Source of the DNA: a virus
DNA length: 20,279 bases
Virus record (IMG/VR): IMGVR_UViG_3300021963_000820
Location: 1 to 20,279 of that record
Direction: 5' to 3' (one strand)
Below, piece by piece: positions 12,479 to 20,077 of this stretch. The notes beneath the pieces were generated by a model. It saw nothing but the letters and a program-made list of their open reading frames with translations, did not search any database and was not told the origin of the DNA. The translations under genes were made by a program, and so were the position numbers. Numbering within the stretch: the first letter of the stretch is position 1; the number at the start of each line of letters is the position of its first letter.

Positions 12479-13489
12479 TTATCCCCATTGGTTTCCTCTT
12501 TGTTTCTGAACCGCTAATGATAGTGAAACAGTTCCTTTAGATGTCTTAAATTCTAATGTACCTGTATATTCTTTATCGCCCGTAAATCCAAATCCTGCAC
12601 TAGGTGCATAATCATCTACCTTACCTTTATTAGTTGTAAATGAAATGGTTTTCTTTTCTTGTGGTTGTAAAGTTACTGCGAATGGGCCGTTTAAGAAATC
12701 AACTCCTTTTTGTGAAATTGAAACATTCTGAACATCTAATGAGAAATTAAATAGTTCTACCTCAGGCCCATTTATCCAGCTACCATTACCATCATCTTTT
12801 GCTCTACCTCTAAAGGTTAAATCATTATATCTCTGGTCTCCTTTATTTATTACTCTAACCGTAATATCAGCCCCTGCCTTCGCCCCCTCCGCAATTCTGG
12901 CATTTTTACCATTTAATTGCTCTGTCAGGCTATCAACTTGTTTTTTTAATGATTCAATAGTTGCGTTTTGACCTTCGTTTCTAGCTTTAAGTGCTGAGTT
13001 TTCAATTCCATCCAATGTCATTCTTTGAATATTAGTTTGGAGTTGATCAGTAATAATAGCAAATTGAGTTCTTAAGTTTTCCGCATTTGCTTCAGCAGTT
13101 ACTCTTAATAATCTTTCACTATCCAATTCTACATCCAATGATGCCGAAATAGCCGTTAAATCTGCAACCTCTCTTTCTAAATCAGATATTTGCAGAGATT
13201 GTGATTCTATTGTTAATCTAGCTAATTCTAATGAACGAGTTACTTCATTATAAACTGGCCTAGGTACTAAATCTAATTCTAATTCAGGTGAAGTAGGAAT
13301 TAATTCAAAAACATTTACATCAATAGCTTTTTTTAATTCATCGGTATTGTAAACTCTTTTCTTTGAAGGAGCATAAACAAACCCCGTCTTATCTTCATCA
13401 AGAGTTGCCTCAAAATAAACGGAGTTTCTATCCCTTGCTACAAGAGAACCACTATTTTGTAAATCTTTTTTAATCAACTCGAACTCCAT
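12479..13489 (-). CDS. coiled-coil plus beta-sandwich protein, probably a short fibre or whisker-like structural protein
   Basis: The 336-residue protein has three parts. Residues 1-80 form a small N-terminal domain (SVYFEATLDEDKTGFVYAPS). Residues about 83-202 are a long heptad-like coiled coil (LARLTIESQSLQISDLEREV, then LKKQVDSLTEQLNGKNARIA). Residues 207-330 are a beta-sandwich of Ig-like type: DITVRVINKGDQRYNDLTFR, FAVTLQPQEKKTISFTTNKG, EYTGTLEFKTSKGTVSLSLA. A rod with a terminal beta domain is the architecture of trimeric phage fibres and whiskers, but homology to T4 fibritin is not evident. The ATG lies inside the end of the DNRLRE-protein gene, a 20-base overlap in a different frame, implying coupled translation. 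It could also be an internal connector; confidence in a structural role is good, in the exact part low. Confidence 0.72.
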   Translation of the reverse strand: MEFELIKKDLQNSGSLVARDRNSVYFEATLDEDKTGFVYAPSKKRVYNTDELKKAIDVNVFELIPTSPELELDLVPRPVYNEVTRSLELARLTIESQSLQISDLEREVADLTAISASLDVELDSERLLRVTAEANAENLRTQFAIITDQLQTNIQRMTLDGIENSALKARNEGQNATIESLKKQVDSLTEQLNGKNARIAEGAKAGADITVRVINKGDQRYNDLTFRGRAKDDGNGSWINGPEVELFNFSLDVQNVSISQKGVDFLNGPFAVTLQPQEKKTISFTTNKGKVDDYAPSAGFGFTGDKEYTGTLEFKTSKGTVSLSLAVQKQRGNQWG

Positions 13490-14468
13490 TACTTCTTATT
13501 TCAAATGTTAAATCATCTTCAAAATATTCTTCAAACCCATCTCTTTCTATCAAAAATAAAAGTCTATAAACTCTATTTTTAGGAAAATTAGTAGTATCGA
13601 ATACTAAATAGTTTCCTTCTGAATTACAATTTATCTTACTATAAGTAGAAAAATCTATAATTTTCTTCTTTGTAATTTCATCTCTGATAGCATAATATGA
13701 ACTTGTTGGAAGATATTTTACATCCAAATAAGAGAATGAATTAGAAAAGGTTTTCAAAGGATATTGATCTCTACCAATTACTTTAATTTTAACCTTTCCA
13801 CCTTCATAGTATGCAGGCTTTAATTCTTTACTTTTAACTATAATCGATGAACCACTCAATGGGCCCAATGAACCAGTTGAAAAAGAACCTGATGTATCAT
13901 CCCACCCCAATTTTAATAAAGGTTGATTTATGGTATTAGTTTCTCTCGAATAAAAATTCATTATACCATAATCTAAAGATGAAGATTCTGCTCCTATTGA
14001 ATGCTTTAAAACTAAGCCATAATTTGTAGAACCAGTCCAATAATCATAAATTGATTTAACATCCATCTCAACATCTAAACTTTGGTATGTAAATGTTTGA
14101 GACCCACTAATTGAAGATGTTACAAACCCAGGTTGAGTGTTCCAAGTTATACCATCTTCATTTGAAGGTGTAAAAATAAATGTCCCAATTCCCATATTCC
14201 AACTTTCGGTTACAGGATATGCGTAAAGGGAAAAACTTACTGGCATCTCTTCTGCCATCGTAAGTTTTAAATCCATAGTTACAGAAGATGCAGTTACATA
14301 TGAAGGTATATTTTCAGTATCGAATTTAATATAAACTCTTGCATCATCTTTTTCAGCAAATCGTGAATAGTGTTTTGATACCGTCAATATTTCATCTAAA
14401 CCAGTATTTTTGGTTTTATATAAGGTATATACCGTTGCATCTTTTGATGCTGTTACAAAATGAATCAT
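13470..14468 (-). CDS. tail/baseplate protein with DNRLRE (CBM96-like) beta-sandwich domain
   Basis: The 332-residue protein carries at residues 5-190 the pattern of the DNRLRE/CBM96-like domain. DATVY (10-14) is followed by the 'G..E.L.V.K' strand (GLDEILTVSK, 23-32), ARVYIKFD (43-50), VTMDLKLT (63-70) and ESW (88-90). ITWNTQPG (107-114) and the ending NFYSRETNTINQPLLKLGW (171-189) complete it. In other proteins such domains are extracellular and often bind polysaccharides. The remaining C-terminal part (205-332) is another beta-rich segment. The gene starts with TAATG-like contact to the gp6-like stop (both at 14468) and overlaps the next gene by 20 bases. A baseplate-attached sugar-binding or stabilising role is inference. 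No catalytic motif is seen. Confidence 0.75.
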   Translation of the reverse strand: MIHFVTASKDATVYTLYKTKNTGLDEILTVSKHYSRFAEKDDARVYIKFDTENIPSYVTASSVTMDLKLTMAEEMPVSFSLYAYPVTESWNMGIGTFIFTPSNEDGITWNTQPGFVTSSISGSQTFTYQSLDVEMDVKSIYDYWTGSTNYGLVLKHSIGAESSSLDYGIMNFYSRETNTINQPLLKLGWDDTSGSFSTGSLGPLSGSSIIVKSKELKPAYYEGGKVKIKVIGRDQYPLKTFSNSFSYLDVKYLPTSSYYAIRDEITKKKIIDFSTYSKINCNSEGNYLVFDTTNFPKNRVYRLLFLIERDGFEEYFEDDLTFEIRSNGVRVD

Positions 14469-16510
14469 TATACTGCTCTTCCTTTTATGTCTTTATCAGG
14501 AAACTTAACTTCAAAGATAGATGGATCCAATGAAGGATAAATTATCTTATTCTTTGTAGCACCTTTAATATCATAACTATTTCTCGCGTATCCACCTCCA
14601 CATTTATTTACAACTTCAACTTTTTGAACCGAAGCTACTCCTTCAACCATTGCCAATGATAATTCAATATCAGATAGATTTATTGTTTGATTGAATTGCC
14701 AATTTTCAATTGCAAAGAATGATTTAATTTCTTCAATACATCTCAGTACAACTTCTCTGCTATTATAATTTCTATATACAGTTACATCAAAATTAATTCC
14801 TATGTTAATCACAAATCCATCTATTATATTAACACCATCAGTAAGGATTCGATATTCATTTAAATATGTTTTAAGATTTTCCTTTACAGCTCTGTTAAGA
14901 TTTGTAAGTTTACCATTCGCATCATATCCTAATGTATAAAGATTGATTGCAAATGGATTTACTTGTTCCGCACTTTGCGTTGTTTTCTGAACAAAACTTC
15001 TTACATTATCTTTTATTTCATTAGTAGTAGGTAATTTCCCCCCTTTTGCTAAAGATGAATTTACTATACTTCGTACTATTTCCGCAAATTCAGTAACATT
15101 TTCAGTTGAATTAAGAATAGCTTCTGGTGAATTTGAATTTAATGAATTATCACCTATTGCAAATACTTTTGAAACTGAACCATATTTTACTGGCATCGAT
15201 AAAGCTCTCACCTGATAATCTTTAGCAGTTACAGCTCTATTTTGAGATGCATAATTTGCTAATGCAGTTTCTCTTATTTCATCTATTGTATCAACTCCTC
15301 TACCACCTTTTGCAGGTATTTCATTTTCAACTGCTAATGAATTTTTTGCAAAATTGTAAACTACTAAATCAAAATCAGAATATGTATCATTCAAATCTTC
15401 ATTAAAAACAATATTTGTAATTGAAGTTAAATCTCCTTGCGGTACATTTGATGAAACCCCACCTCCTACTAAATAGGTAACAGTTAGTGTACTATTTGCA
15501 GATGGTGATTGCCCATAAGATTTTGTTTTCAAAAAGTTAGTAGGGTCGTATGATTCAGCCATTCTATCTATTGAGTTGTTTAATCCCAATCCTACGTTTT
15601 TAAGGTTTGGTATAATCAACTCATCACTTAAGGAACTATCACCTCCACCAAAATGAATCGATGTAGTAAAATCATCGTTCGTCTTTACAACGAATCTTCT
15701 AGATGTTTTTAATAATTTTAACAAATAAGGGACAGTTGTAGAGAATTGATATAAATCTGGATCATTTTGCTCAACATTTGGGTAATCAATGTAAATTGTT
15801 TCTTGTGCCAAATATGGAACTTCATACCATTTATTTCCATTATCATCTATTACACTTTCTACCGAAATTACATTTATATCCGATAAATCTATTTTTTGAA
15901 AGGCTTCAGATGTTGTAAATGTTTGTTCAAACGTTTTTTCGGTGGCAGATATTGCCTGTATTTTTTTCTTTACTAAGAAATAATCTGGAATATTAGTAAT
16001 ATTCGTTGTACTATATACGGTTACCTCTCTATCATTTTCATCGTTAAAATCTAATGATTCCACAGTTCTAAATGTAAGTCCGGAAACTGAATTAGACCTT
16101 ACCTCTAATCCTGGATTTATTCTCAATAAATATTTAGTATCCAATTCACCATTAGAGGTTGCCTTACATAATTGATATACTGATATTGTAGTAATTGCAG
16201 GAGAAGTAGATTTTGGTTTATACCCTAAAAGATTTGCTAACGCAAAAACATTTTTCTCTTCTGAAGCAAATTGAATAAGGCTCTCCTTTAGGGAAGAATC
16301 GGTATAATAACCCAATACATCTCCAATATATGATGCCATTTCTATAAACATCATACCAGGCGATGCTTCATTAAAATCATTGTAAGAAGATGGGAAATAT
16401 GTTTTAGCATATTCAACCAAATTATCTCTAAATGATTGAAAATCTTTACCTAAATAGCTTATATCTCTACTATTTCTTCCTATTTTTTTATTTGTTACTT
16501 TAAATGCCAT
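14468..16510 (-). CDS. 6: baseplate wedge protein gp6-like (baseplate J family)
   Basis: The 680-residue protein matches the gp6 type of baseplate wedge subunit. ISYLGKDFQSFRDNLVEYAK (17-36), YFPSSYNDFNEASPGMMFIE (38-57) and YIGDVLGYYTDSSLKESLIQ (61-80) form the conserved N-terminal block, followed by ALANLLGYKP (90-99). Around residues 400-450 is the baseplate-J signature: GGRGVDTIDEIRETALANYA, then RAVTAKDYQVRA and YGSVSKVFA. In T4, gp6 dimers form the inner ring that joins wedges around the hub and change conformation on contraction. T4 gp6 is of similar length (660 residues), so this gene looks complete. It begins with a TAATG overlap on the gp25-like gene, the expected partner. Confidence in the family is high. 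Confidence 0.92.
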   Translation of the reverse strand: MAFKVTNKKIGRNSRDISYLGKDFQSFRDNLVEYAKTYFPSSYNDFNEASPGMMFIEMASYIGDVLGYYTDSSLKESLIQFASEEKNVFALANLLGYKPKSTSPAITTISVYQLCKATSNGELDTKYLLRINPGLEVRSNSVSGLTFRTVESLDFNDENDREVTVYSTTNITNIPDYFLVKKKIQAISATEKTFEQTFTTSEAFQKIDLSDINVISVESVIDDNGNKWYEVPYLAQETIYIDYPNVEQNDPDLYQFSTTVPYLLKLLKTSRRFVVKTNDDFTTSIHFGGGDSSLSDELIIPNLKNVGLGLNNSIDRMAESYDPTNFLKTKSYGQSPSANSTLTVTYLVGGGVSSNVPQGDLTSITNIVFNEDLNDTYSDFDLVVYNFAKNSLAVENEIPAKGGRGVDTIDEIRETALANYASQNRAVTAKDYQVRALSMPVKYGSVSKVFAIGDNSLNSNSPEAILNSTENVTEFAEIVRSIVNSSLAKGGKLPTTNEIKDNVRSFVQKTTQSAEQVNPFAINLYTLGYDANGKLTNLNRAVKENLKTYLNEYRILTDGVNIIDGFVINIGINFDVTVYRNYNSREVVLRCIEEIKSFFAIENWQFNQTINLSDIELSLAMVEGVASVQKVEVVNKCGGGYARNSYDIKGATKNKIIYPSLDPSIFEVKFPDKDIKGRAV

Positions 16511-16941
16511 TATTCAACTATATTAAAAGTTACAGTCTCTAAATTTTGTTGTCCCGAAACCCTAAATGATAGTGAAATATTAAAATTATATCTATCTCTA
16601 TCACTATTTGATTGATCTACTAAAATCTCTTCAATAGATACAAATGGCATCCATTGTGCAACAGATTCTTCTATCGATGTTTGTACTTTAATTTCCAAAT
16701 CATCAGTATTTTGTTCAAAAAGAGCTTCATATAATGAAGTTCCAAATGTTGGGTGCATTAATCTTTCTCCTCTTCTTGTAAGTAAAAGATTTTTAATGTT
16801 TGATTTTATTTGGTCGATAGTTTGGTATGATTGAGCAAAATATCCATTAGCCCCTCTTTGAAAAGGGAGCGTTACACCAATAGCAACTCTATCCTGCTCT
16901 GGTAAATCTTTAACTAATTTTGGCCCAATTACTATCGCCAT
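16510..16941 (-). CDS. 25: baseplate wedge protein, gp25/GPW family
   Basis: The 143-residue protein carries the GPW/gp25 family hallmark LLLTRRGERLMHPTFGTSLY (52-71), preceded by IGVTLPF (21-27) and the helix SYQTIDQIKSNIKN (38-51). T4 gp25 is 132 residues, so this is full length. In contractile tails gp25 sits at the inner ring of the baseplate, contacts gp6 and gp53, and initiates sheath polymerisation. The gene is followed directly by the gp6-like gene with TAATG overlap, the usual pairing. Only 5 bases separate it from the 150-residue gene upstream. The start is preceded by an A-rich stretch (AAAGATAAAAATAGATAAG) with no Shine-Dalgarno. Identity is secure. Confidence 0.94.
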   Translation of the reverse strand: MAIVIGPKLVKDLPEQDRVAIGVTLPFQRGANGYFAQSYQTIDQIKSNIKNLLLTRRGERLMHPTFGTSLYEALFEQNTDDLEIKVQTSIEESVAQWMPFVSIEEILVDQSNSDRDRYNFNISLSFRVSGQQNLETVTFNIVE

Positions 16942-16946
16942 TTATC

Positions 16947-17399
16947 TTATCTATTTTTATCTTTACTCGCTTTCAAAACCTGAGCACTTCTCATTATTGC
17001 TTTATCGATAATATCATTTCCTGTTTGTGGCATCGGAGAAGATTGATTTTGATACCCCACCTGAGGATTACCATACCCAATCATTTCAGGTGTCATAGTT
17101 CCCCACTCTCCATCGGTTCTACTAAAATTAGGTCTTACCGCAGTTTCATTCAAGATTTGGTTTAAAGTTGGGTTTTTAGTATATTGCTTTTGCTCAACTT
17201 CTCTATCTTCCTCTAATAAAGCCAATGCTCTATCGAAAGGATTATCAATTTTCTTTTCAACTATTGTAGGTTTTACACTAGCTTTTTTAAGTTCAGCTAG
17301 AATTTCTTTTCTAACCTGTTCCTTAATCTCAGCAGTTTGTTTTTTAACTTCTTCTTTTACTACAAGCTGAATAGCTTTAAAAAGTTTGTTAGTATCCAT
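16947..17399 (-). CDS. small coiled-coil protein in the baseplate cluster, function unknown
   Basis: The 150-residue protein starts MDTNKLFKAIQLVVKEEVKK. Residues 5-42 form an amphipathic, Lys/Glu-rich coiled coil. The second half is Asn/Gln/Gly/Pro-rich (EWGTMTPEMIGYGNPQVGYQ, 98-117) and looks disordered, ending in a short helix (DIIDKAIMRSAQVLKAS). There is no membrane segment. It lies between the lysozyme gene and the gp25-like gene with 45 and 5 bases of spacing, so it is likely a baseplate-hub component or an assembly chaperone. I do not recognise a named family. The upstream 45-base gap contains a repeated AT-rich motif that may serve as its promoter. Confidence 0.68.
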   Translation of the reverse strand: MDTNKLFKAIQLVVKEEVKKQTAEIKEQVRKEILAELKKASVKPTIVEKKIDNPFDRALALLEEDREVEQKQYTKNPTLNQILNETAVRPNFSRTDGEWGTMTPEMIGYGNPQVGYQNQSSPMPQTGNDIIDKAIMRSAQVLKASKDKNR

Positions 17400-17444: not shown

Positions 17445-18818
17445 CTATCCCGCAGTATTCGTATTAGTTGTTGCATTAGTTGATGCAACACCAGCTGTTA
17501 TATCAGTTGGGGCCTGTATAGGAAGTGGTTGTGATAAAAATAATGCCGATTCTTCGGATCTTCTTCTAATCAATCCTGGATAAACTACACCACCTCCACT
17601 TGTAGGCCCTTCTTTTATATACTGACCCGCTAAATCATAATTTCCTTCCTTAATAGCCTTAGCAATTTTTGTTCTCAAGCTACCACAGTTATAAGCATAA
17701 CTTACCACAGCTGCTTTAGCAGGTTCAGTTAATTTATTCCATTCATCCTCAGTTAGTTGATGTACATCATTTCCAACAACTCTTGGTCTGAAACGATTAA
17801 CTAAATCATGCTCTAACATTTTCATAGCATTCGCTCGAGTAGTCTTCATACCAATAGGAGGAGGTACTTTTTTCTGGTTGGTTTGTTTATAATAGTCAGC
17901 AACAGGTAATACTCTTTTAATAGTTCCATCATCAAGTAAAATTTTATCAGTTCCAAATCCTAATCGGTATGCGTTTACATCCCACGATGAAATCTCAGTA
18001 AATCCTTCATTTTTAGAAACATATGCTGCGCAAATTTTCACCCACTCTCCACTCAAATCCAGAGAACTAATATCTCCTACTGCTTCTCCTACACCACCTG
18101 CAACTTCAGGAAGATTAACTTTTTGTTCATCCGCAAACGCTTGAAGAGCCGCATCTAATTCAGCTGGATCAACCAAAAATCCAAATTTTCTTTTCAAATC
18201 GGCTAATTTATTAGGATCTGTCTGAAATGCGTTTAATGGTACTCCGCTCATATCAAACTCATTACCGGTGGCAGAAAACCCTGTCCAAGTTCCAACCCCC
18301 ACTGCGGTAATTCCTCCTGGAAAAATCGCGGTTGTGAATATTTCACCACCAACCGTTAGCAAATGAACATTTGCTGCCAAAATTAATTTATCTATAAATC
18401 CATCTACATTATCCAATCCTTCGTATGTAAAAGCTATTGTAGTTTGGATTCCAGTTCTAGTAACTAAAACTTGCTGAACCGGTAACATATTTGATATAGC
18501 ACCAGGAACAGGTATAAGAGGAGGATATAATGGTTGCAAAGTAGCCCCAGCCCAATATTGAATAAAACCATTAGCTATGGCATTAATAATATCTAATTGC
18601 TCATCGGATGCTTCTTGTTGAAGTAAAACTGATTTTATTTTTAGTTCCAATGCCTGAACGTTTCCGACTTGAACAGGATTTTTATTCATTAAATCACCGG
18701 AAGGAGGAGTTTTTAATAAAGTATCGTATGCTTGAGCTATTTCCCTAGCTAAATCATCTGGAGAAAACGGAGGAGATTCCATCACTCTTTTAACTCTAGC
18801 TTTAAAAATATCCCACAT
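17445..18818 (-). CDS. baseplate/tail protein with C-terminal GH24 (T4-type) lysozyme domain
   Basis: The 457-residue protein has an N-terminal part of about 255 residues with Pro-rich, beta-prone sequence that I do not recognise. A T4-lysozyme-like domain covers about 258-430. Catalytic Glu271 sits in KNEGF, followed eight residues later by Asp280 (SSWD), as in T4 lysozyme Glu11/Asp20. The glycine turn YRLGFGTDK (284-292) aligns with 'TIGYG', but the usual catalytic Thr position is Arg285 or Leu286. AVVSYAYNCGSL (370-381) and PGLIRRRSEESALF (414-427) are strong GH24 landmarks. The domain would cut peptidoglycan during tail penetration. The last 25 residues are Thr/Asn/Ala-rich. The ATG overlaps the spike gene's stop as TAATG, so the lysozyme is made alongside the gp5-like protein rather than inside it as in T4. 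The N-terminal part probably anchors it in the tail tip. Confidence 0.85.
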   Translation of the reverse strand: MWDIFKARVKRVMESPPFSPDDLAREIAQAYDTLLKTPPSGDLMNKNPVQVGNVQALELKIKSVLLQQEASDEQLDIINAIANGFIQYWAGATLQPLYPPLIPVPGAISNMLPVQQVLVTRTGIQTTIAFTYEGLDNVDGFIDKLILAANVHLLTVGGEIFTTAIFPGGITAVGVGTWTGFSATGNEFDMSGVPLNAFQTDPNKLADLKRKFGFLVDPAELDAALQAFADEQKVNLPEVAGGVGEAVGDISSLDLSGEWVKICAAYVSKNEGFTEISSWDVNAYRLGFGTDKILLDDGTIKRVLPVADYYKQTNQKKVPPPIGMKTTRANAMKMLEHDLVNRFRPRVVGNDVHQLTEDEWNKLTEPAKAAVVSYAYNCGSLRTKIAKAIKEGNYDLAGQYIKEGPTSGGGVVYPGLIRRRSEESALFLSQPLPIQAPTDITAGVASTNATTNTNTAG

Positions 18819-20077
18819 TACATTTGAAATTTAACGGTGCCCGATAAAACAGTTGATAATCTACTTCCTATCGCTCTTAATTTGTTTTCATTTTCCTGAT
18901 TCATACCCGATACTGGCCCAGCTGGAGTTCTAAATCCACCATCTCTTAAGTTTATAATTTCAGCGATTAAATCTCTGAGAACTTTTACTAATTCATCACC
19001 ATCAACTAAAGGTTTTAAATTCTTAGAACCTAAATTTATTTTACCAGTGTCTCCAACGTGAAGGTTTATTTGATTACCAAATGCCTGAATATCAATATGG
19101 TTTTTTGAGTTAATGTTTATACCCCTATCAGTATCCACAGTAAATATACCATCAGTTATTATGCCAAAATGACTTTTACTCCAAAAAATCATTTCATTTT
19201 TTCTAGAGGAAAAGATTAATCTATCAGAAGTTATGAATATTTGCTCACCATCCAATTTAGAAGGATAGGCTTCAAATCCAAAATCATCATCCAATCCTAT
19301 GTAAACAAATTTAGATGATTTATCCGGTCTAGTTTTGAAATTAGAACCTCCTAATTTATCCGGTGTTCCTGGTACAAAATTTATAGCGGATTTACCACTT
19401 GATAATAAAATTGTAGAACCATCCTTATTTAAATCTTCTAGAACTGAATCGTCTCCTCCGCCGCCTAATACCCCAAGTAATCCACCTGCTTCTTTTTGCT
19501 TGTTTCTAATTGTTATAGTTGGTGCAAATTCATTTTTACCATTATTAAAACCTGATAATCGAATACTTTGACCAAATCTAGATTGTAATAAAGTATCTCC
19601 TTCAAAAAGTTTTAATCTTCCAATTTTCTCCTTTTTAAAATAATTACCAAAATTTCCACCGAATCCACCTATCGCACTTAATGCACCGCTCAATGATTTA
19701 AAGTTACCTATACCAGTTTGAGGCGTAGAAGGTTGAGGTGCACTACTATCCAGTCCACCATTATTAATTGTTTTATTTAAATTTATTCTACGATAGACAG
19801 GAATACTCCCTGCAAAATTAACATCTACGAGTTCACTTTGTAGGGGCAAATCTAAAAATTTTTCATTCTCCGGATATGCTATAACAGTGGTAGATTTGTT
19901 TTTTGCAACCAAATCCACTTCAATTGCTCCTGGAAGTATTTTAGTTCCTCCTGGAGTTAAACCAAAATCTAAATAAACTTTTTTTACCTTTCCCTGAATT
20001 ACATCAGATGAAGTATTGTAAGATTTATTAGATAGAGGTGATACTCTATAATCATCCCTAAATGAAAAAATTCCCAT
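18818..20077 (-). CDS. 5: gp5-like baseplate hub/spike protein (OB-fold plus beta-helix needle)
   Basis: The 419-residue protein resembles the hub/spike of contractile tails. Residues 24-100 form an OB-fold-like beta domain (VIQGKVKKVYLDFG, AIEVDLVAKN, then LDLPLQSELVDVNFAGSIPV). After a Gly/Ser/Pro-rich linker (102-148), FEGDTLLQSRFGQSIRLSG (158-176) and PTITIRN (186-192) match a conserved strand pair of gp5-type hub proteins. Residues 278-350 alternate short hydrophobic strands (IFITSDRLIFSSRKNEMIFW, then GIFTVDTDRGININSKNHID), as in the triple beta-helix needle, and end INLGSKNLKPLVDGDELVKV (347-366). Unlike T4 gp5 (575 residues) there is no lysozyme domain between the OB-fold and the needle; that activity is in the next gene. 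The stop of the upstream partial gene touches this ATG (TAAATG). Confidence 0.82.
   Translation of the reverse strand: MGIFSFRDDYRVSPLSNKSYNTSSDVIQGKVKKVYLDFGLTPGGTKILPGAIEVDLVAKNKSTTVIAYPENEKFLDLPLQSELVDVNFAGSIPVYRRINLNKTINNGGLDSSAPQPSTPQTGIGNFKSLSGALSAIGGFGGNFGNYFKKEKIGRLKLFEGDTLLQSRFGQSIRLSGFNNGKNEFAPTITIRNKQKEAGGLLGVLGGGGDDSVLEDLNKDGSTILLSSGKSAINFVPGTPDKLGGSNFKTRPDKSSKFVYIGLDDDFGFEAYPSKLDGEQIFITSDRLIFSSRKNEMIFWSKSHFGIITDGIFTVDTDRGININSKNHIDIQAFGNQINLHVGDTGKINLGSKNLKPLVDGDELVKVLRDLIAEIINLRDGGFRTPAGPVSGMNQENENKLRAIGSRLSTVLSGTVKFQM

Follow-up and report, generated by a model that had tools for sequence, protein, structure and literature searches.

A predicted carrier module beside the tail spike of an uncultured phage, with exchangeable wall-degrading enzymes

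The window analyzed here, a 20,279-base virus fragment from IMG/VR (IMGVR_UViG_3300021963_000820), carries its baseplate genes on the minus strand. Directly after the gene for a spike-like protein lies a gene for a 457-residue protein that is probably a baseplate-borne (virion-associated) peptidoglycan hydrolase, composed of a conserved N-terminal carrier module and a C-terminal plug-in enzyme. In this phage the plug-in appears to be an Arg-type GH24-like lysozyme. The carrier protein would be located in the virion with its module docked at the spike/hub end; tail contraction would carry the enzyme with the spike into the periplasm, where cutting of peptidoglycan would open the wall. Relatives appear to swap the enzyme end freely, and about half of the loci with a module divide it, mostly with one enzyme per half.

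An earlier description of the window, made from its letters alone (the sequence-only reading), had named both genes and a TAATG overlap between them. Both are open reading frames (ORFs) on the minus strand, and the overlap is legible in the sequence. The second gene has the following features, listed with the evidence for each; pLDDT is the predicted local distance difference test score, HMM stands for hidden Markov model, and relatives of the locus are designated by L numbers.

17445..18818, minus strand: carrier-lysozyme gene, 457 amino acids (ORF; PF00959; AlphaFold2 model m94d350ad4013)
18816..18820, minus strand: TAATG stop-start overlap of the spike and carrier-lysozyme genes (stop TAA 18820-18818, ATG 18818-18816)
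18264..18818, minus strand: carrier module, residues 1-185 (module HMM aligned over 1-182; secondary structure; stand-alone homologues LR756508 and BFVD A0A6J5MBZ8)
18063..18263, minus strand: variable linker, residues 186-252 (low pLDDT at 186-199 and 232-245; lowest identity to L002)
17526..18062, minus strand: GH24-like lysozyme domain, residues 253-431 (VIA match over 256-429; Foldseek match to 6et6)
18006..18008, minus strand: codon of Glu271, the catalytic acid position (Glu in 16/16 aligned rows)
17979..17981, minus strand: codon of Asp280 (Asp in 16/16 aligned rows)
17964..17966, minus strand: codon of Arg285, opposite Thr26 of T4 lysozyme (Arg in 16/16 aligned rows)

The lysozyme domain and its active site

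The 457-residue protein matches PF00959 (E = 2.7e-8, 34.6 bits against a curated cut-off of 22.3) and the PHROG endolysin family phrog_7 (6.6e-16); a search of NCBIfam gave nothing decisive beyond these Pfam and PHROG results. Its AlphaFold2 model (mean pLDDT 72.7) has a T4-lysozyme fold at approximately residues 253–431, which agrees with the lysozyme domain that had been placed at the C-terminus of the gene after the spike. When the predicted model was compared to solved structures, VIA gave a Z score of 17.1 to 9kbq (143 residues, root-mean-square deviation (RMSD) 2.1) and scores of about 11.5 for T4 lysozyme entries, and Foldseek identified 6et6 at 5.4e-6.

The sequence-only reading had numbered Glu271 and Asp280 (Glu-x8-Asp), Arg285 and Leu286 correctly, and left the equivalent of T4 Thr26 as either Arg285 or Leu286. 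From profile alignments to solved lysozymes and to T4 gp5 (E = 1.7e-5), it is Arg285 and not Leu286 that faces this position (Thr199 in gp5). Relative to the same proteins, one loop residue is deleted ahead of Arg285, and the active-site pattern in the window is Glu-x8-Asp-x4-Arg. A Glu(X)8(Asp/Cys)(X)5Thr motif is stated for every published structure of the T4-like GH24 family in PMC8228626, and the residue that positions the catalytic water is given as Thr or Ser in PMC5674055. Among the best solved-structure matches, all four with listed alignments are of the Thr type. Since the window lysozyme does not follow the published motif, retaining Glu-x8-Asp and continuing with x4 and Arg, it is considered to have a GH24-like fold and not to be a canonical GH24 member.

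Glu, Asp and Arg are invariant across the 16 aligned relatives, all of which also have Ser or Thr directly after a GxG sequence; one of them (L021) has extra residues inserted between Glu and Asp. The variant active site of the sequence-only reading therefore holds insofar as the third triad residue is Arg, but with Arg in 16/16 members the alteration is a trait of a subfamily and is not private to the window phage. Half of the aligned members (8/16) are annotated phage records, and of these eight, five lie in genes annotated as tape measures (L008, L009, L013, L014, L015), two in unnamed genes (L010, L011) and one in a named lysozyme (L012). In annotated phages, the closest relatives by sequence are for the most part domains within the tape-measure proteins of siphophages. 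As judged from these alignments, there is a GH24-like subfamily of the pattern Glu-x8-Asp-x4-Arg that includes the predicted tape-measure lysozymes of unrelated siphophages. It would represent a widespread group of lysozymes without the Thr held to position water, with a mechanism that is directly testable. Within the window, the domain is predicted to act as a muramidase and Arg285 may have a role in its catalysis.

The carrier module and its cargo

The region ahead of the lysozyme had been described as about 255 residues of unknown sequence. It is indeed N-terminal to the lysozyme, but it consists of a conserved module of about 185 residues and a linker of about 67. In the predicted model, the module has four α-helices and a strand, a loop, and then a helix and two strands. 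An HMM of 184 columns matches the window domain, which adjoins the spike, with an E-value of 1.5e-63, the window being also among the seeds. The 484-kb megaphage LR756508 has as its post-spike gene a 175-residue homologue of residues ~10–159 (24% identity, BLASTP 2e-7) that carries no enzyme. Among predicted viral proteins, a structure search of BFVD with the carrier model gave as its best match A0A6J5MBZ8, an uncharacterized protein of 182 residues (E = 5.6e-12, template modeling (TM) score 0.87 by target length, RMSD 2.0). Few annotated phages were found by BLAST with the module, and the confident PDB matches of the full carrier-lysozyme model in VIA and Foldseek concern the lysozyme part only.

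Between the window and L002, the ratio of nonsynonymous to synonymous divergence (dN/dS) is 0.073 in the module and 0.19 in the lysozyme, which shows purifying selection and fits a function for both. The linker is the least identical of four segments in this comparison (79.1%).

Relatives were collected by a scan of genome contigs with the gp6/BaseplateJ-like protein of the window, and loci with both spike and gp25 on the contig were taken as complete slots. In the window, the genes are transcribed in the order 142-residue gene, spike, carrier-lysozyme, 150-residue predicted coiled-coil, gp25, gp6/BaseplateJ and more tail genes. The three genes that follow the carrier are:

16947..17399, minus strand: 150-residue predicted coiled-coil protein ('coiled-coil' by eye; conserved between carrier and gp25)
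16510..16941, minus strand: gp25-like baseplate wedge protein (PF04965, 1.7e-14)
14468..16510, minus strand: gp6/BaseplateJ-like wedge protein, the query for relatives (phrog_219, 1.9e-25)

The order of spike, carrier, coil, gp25 and gp6 is conserved among relatives, and the 142-residue gene ahead of the spike is complete in L003. Two copies (L001, L019), a partial locus (L005) and L018 were dropped before counting; L018 (LR756511) has gp6 and no module match in its record. The module is present in 35 of the 50 complete slots, on one ORF in 17 and across two ORFs in 18. In a further set of contigs from metagenome-assembled genomes of GTDB (L104-L110), the spike-gp25-gp6 order is found in six of seven, L110 being a contig that starts within gp25, and the module was matched only in L106.

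An enzyme was recognized by HMMs in 23 of the 35 module loci: CHAP in 10, GH19 in 7, GH24 in 4, M15_4, VanY and GDSL in 3 each and C39_2 in 1, with two enzymes in some loci. Overall, the cargo ranges over GH24, GH19, CHAP, DUF2272, C39-like, VanY/M15 and GDSL domains, or is none. The seed families were identified independently by Pfam: DUF2272 in L020 (1e-12), PF00959 in L021 and L034, Peptidase_C39_2 in L024 (4e-6), CHAP in L031, L050 and L057 (weakly in L025), VanY in L026 (2.1e-17), M15_4 in L026 and L029, GH19 in L031 (1.8e-8) and GDSL in L063 (2.7e-10). Weaker matches are Peptidase_M23 in L027 (3.2e-6, just below cut-off), Hydrolase_2 in L056 (3e-4) and M15_3 in L051 (0.0017). The labels X (CHAP/NlpC-like), Y (SleB-like) and M15_3, which are applied in the tree below, stand for weak matches combined with a reading of the sequence. 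Pfam gives no match for the GH19-like domain of L023, which does match solved enzymes, 8p8e (glycoside hydrolase) at 4.8e-17 and 4ok7 and others named endolysin, as well as PHROG endolysins at 2.9e-26. As separate observations, L020 (7314-7990) and L022 (467-1130) have an extra domain of ~220 residues and a Gly-rich linker fused ahead of the DUF2272-bearing module, and in the module-less loci L081-L098 the slot protein is 264–386 residues long, coiled-coil by eye and without a recognized enzyme.

Comparisons of close relatives show where the cargo changes. Beyond near-copies of the window, its closest gp6 relatives are L030 (88.5% gp6 identity) and L023 (85.1%). The carrier gene is common to the window only over residues 1–231 in L030 and 1–226 in L023, after which both have a GH19-like enzyme in place of the GH24 cargo of the window. 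L032 and L036 are closer to each other (gp6 96.2% and gp25 98.6% identical), and share their first ORF to residue 128 (90%), beyond which the enzymes differ. At the DNA level, the two module halves of this pair match at 85% (398 bases) and 86% (151 bases) and the sequence from the coil gene onward at 91%; there is a further 65-base match at the contig start and none in the enzyme parts. In L037 and L041 (gp6 97.5%) the second cargo differs, and the second-half cargo of L037 is 82% identical to the first-half cargo of L041. Within L037 (2-583 and 585-1595), the same CHAP-like cargo was also seen on both half-modules, as if duplicated between halves.

On a gp6 tree of 50 loci, the C-terminal cargo changes at least 15 times among 38 labelled rows with 8 states (minimum possible 7) and the single or split state at least 5 times; the tree is a quick one with open forks, some cargo labels were assigned by eye and 12 labelled 'other' were excluded. 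Compared with L002, the window has a synonymous divergence of 0.163 (module), 0.476 (linker), 0.351 (lysozyme) and 0.099 (26-residue tail); compared with L003, the values are 0.125 (spike), 0.106 (gp25) and 0.047 (gp6). The pattern in linker and lysozyme fits an exchange at the cargo end.

Carrier modules divided over two genes

In 18 of the 35 complete module loci, the N-terminal part of the module is on a first ORF and the remainder opens a second, adjacent ORF. With the exception of L051 and L071, the loci break at about the same place (16/18), with the end of the first ORF at module columns 127–140 and the start of the second at 130–132. This break corresponds to approximately residues 131–135 of the window protein, which in the model form a loop between the strand 109–121 and the helix 138–153. 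The two ORFs are 0–23 bases apart. A sequencing frameshift was considered as the cause of the split and rejected, since most split loci gain whole domains on both ORFs and have their break in the same position.

The second half bears GH19 or GH24 in ten of the 18 loci (L031, L033, L035, L040, L041, L051; L045, L046, L058, L072), and its partner on the first half in those ten is CHAP, VanY or, by weaker matches, an M15- or CHAP-like domain. The remaining eight have on the second half M15_4 (L026, L036), X (L029, L074), Y (L052, L063, L076) or nothing recognized (L071). Several split-type phages, among them L033 (3238-4551) and L040 (2510-3865), have one more ORF between the spike and the first half-module; that of L033 contains PG_binding_1 (3.6e-14) and may be a third part that binds the wall.

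Tentatively, and at somewhat less than an even chance, the split loci may encode one carrier fold over two genes, the halves of which would reassemble in the virion and thereby load every docking site with two enzymes as an obligate pair. In the commonest pairing, the first half would bring a peptidase or amidase and the second a glycosidase, and it is plausible that the two chemistries co-operate in these phages. The half-modules also seem to be homology arms through which new enzymes were swapped in; the window has the single-chain form of the carrier. The two genes may instead reflect plain fission of independent subdomains that do not rejoin, a prospect that falls appreciably short of even and touches the split carriers only. 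While the half-modules may be separate subdomains, the break falls near the same column in 16/18 loci and both halves are retained side by side; in addition, the halves would be joined in a small sheet if strands 109–121, 157–166 and 170–179 of the model were to pair.

The spike, competing explanations and known systems

The spike gene was annotated as follows.

18818..20077, minus strand: spike gene, 419 amino acids, without lysozyme (model with OB-fold and spike-like matches)
19739..20014, minus strand: spike OB-fold, residues 22-113 (predicted model)
19658..19747, minus strand: Gly/Ser-rich low-confidence linker of the spike, residues 111-140 (pLDDT under 50)

By sequence, the spike matches no Pfam or PHROG family and its best PDB match has an E-value of 0.21; a single member of its family of 45 has a weak PHROG match to 'hub and tail lysozyme' (0.007), and an hhalign comparison of the spike profile with T4 gp5 found no detectable similarity (E = 0.39). 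Since the sequence searches were uninformative, the structure was modeled (m3effec94400b, mean pLDDT 71.7), giving the OB-fold followed by spike-like β-structure. The model matches the A-1(L) spike (Z 7.7), the phiKZ spike (7.5), P2 gpV (7.1), the extracellular contractile injection system (eCIS) spike 9gtr_q (6.9; 200 residues, RMSD 3.5) and the Photorhabdus virulence cassette (PVC) structure 6j0m (6.8; 154 residues); for this single-chain model such Z values are modest and are equalled by unrelated OB-folds, but the listed matches that cover most of the chain are spikes. The model thus suggests a central spike of the contractile-tail type. The sequence-only reading of an OB-fold and needle-like part without lysozyme is borne out: there is neither room nor signal for a lysozyme in the model and the searches, and none of 62 spike ORFs from the fetched loci matches any of the eight enzyme HMMs. 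Nor was anything else found that the reading had named as fatal to it, be it a non-lysozyme fold or a Thr at the Thr26 position.

Two other observations concern the window. Directly after gp6 in the baseplate operon, 13470-14468 encodes a CBM96-like domain protein (2.6e-13), possibly a sugar-binding baseplate part, and 3-677 and 688-1506, where the block of tail genes ends, encode an adjacent pair of proteins with a SGNH/GDSL-type look (by eye only). By gp6, the nearest isolates are Flavobacterium phage immuto and Microcystis phage Mel-JY01 (40–42% identity), and related contigs are binned with Flavobacteriales and Winogradskyella. These relationships hint at a Bacteroidota host, with the counterpoint that Mel-JY01 infects Microcystis.

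Several points weigh against a carrier with plug-in enzymes. The loci are the best 80 of 596 gp6 relatives, and 50 of these 80 are complete, 28 being without a spike and 2 without gp25. Fifteen of the 50 complete slots are without the module, and 12 of the 35 module loci are without an enzyme by the eight enzyme HMMs, which were seeded from the same loci. Immuto has the slot, with the module nowhere in its record. In Mel-JY01, the one isolate in which the module was found, it is a separate 183-residue gene (HMM E-values 3e-16 and 2.2e-15) that stands alone near the terminase and far from the spike (L112:4932-5483; PP395634.1 14458-15009), and the post-spike slot has a GH19-like enzyme without the module. 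Finally, a Foldseek search with the full carrier-lysozyme model as the query returned no solved structure that matches the module with confidence.

The lysozyme-like domain might be a non-catalytic wall-binding or structural domain in which Arg has replaced the water-positioning Thr, as the Arg in all 16 rows and the one residue fewer after Asp in the window would allow. This appears unlikely given that Glu and Asp are retained in the same 16 rows, that the lysozyme dN/dS is low and that other cargo in the slot belongs to catalytic families. Somewhat more doubtful is a role in host lysis, as an endolysin whose gene happens to lie among baseplate genes and whose N-terminal part serves only for targeting or regulation. 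The family PF00959 is typical of endolysins and the best PHROG label is endolysin, but the position between spike and gp25 is fixed in relatives, an enzyme-free module occupies the same place in LR756508, split loci hold two enzymes at once, and the closest lysozyme domains by sequence are mostly in tape-measure proteins.

T4 gp5 has OB-fold, lysozyme and needle on one chain, with which its PHROG matches agree. The window has the lysozyme in the next gene, and the finding of gp5-type parts on adjacent genes with a TAATG overlap could be read as fission of a gp5-like ancestor, the lysozyme having left the spike and been caught by the neighbor gene. We regard this as very improbable. The related spikes are free of enzyme matches, the slot enzyme differs between close relatives, and no similarity to gp5 is detectable from the spike profile; lysozyme-free spikes also exist elsewhere, as in P2 gpV and, according to PMC10966104, A-1(L) gp25. 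Thus a history in which the lysozyme split off from the spike is not upheld. From the nearest relatives in tape-measure proteins, the enzyme-free spikes and a slot cargo that is unrelated or missing, the enzyme looks to have been appended to a separate carrier. The expectation of a delivery other than that of T4 fared better, since the enzyme and the spike are encoded by separate genes and delivery of the enzyme probably differs.

If correct, the reading of a conserved carrier with plug-in enzymes would explain how contractile phages vary the chemistry of wall cutting while leaving the spike as it is, by means of a conserved plug-in site beside it. The module would serve as a marker for entry enzymes in uncultured phages and, in its split form, as a natural design to fix two enzymes at one site. 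No description of a shared carrier with swapped enzymes, or of a split carrier, was found in the literature searched, which is no proof of absence.

With T4 gp5, the window shares a baseplate locus, a T4-lysozyme-like fold, an OB-fold spike and an enzyme meant to open the wall at entry. In contrast to the one chain of gp5, it has a separate carrier, Arg for Thr, an exchangeable cargo and a spike profile not detectably similar to gp5. The tape-measure lysozymes of Casjensviridae and other siphophages have the same Glu-x8-Asp-x4-Arg pattern (AH2, V18 and Phobos, 31–34% domain identity); these are internal tape-measure domains, whereas the window enzyme is on a baseplate carrier. Immuto and Mel-JY01 share the spike-slot-gp25-gp6 order and differ in the slot, immuto being without the module and Mel-JY01 having a GH19-like enzyme there and the module elsewhere. 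Virion-associated peptidoglycan hydrolases (VAPGHs, or virion-associated lysins) are described in PMC5380687 as encoded by structural genes and used for entry. The window likewise encodes a muralytic-type domain within its structural operon, its use at entry being predicted from the genes. A precedent for several wall-degrading domains at the baseplate beside an enzyme-free spike is the Anabaena myophage A-1(L), whose hub protein gp15 has lysozyme, endoglucanase and peptidase domains according to PMC10966104. There they form one multi-domain hub chain, as opposed to the small carrier proposed here, with its exchangeable cargo and sometimes two chains.

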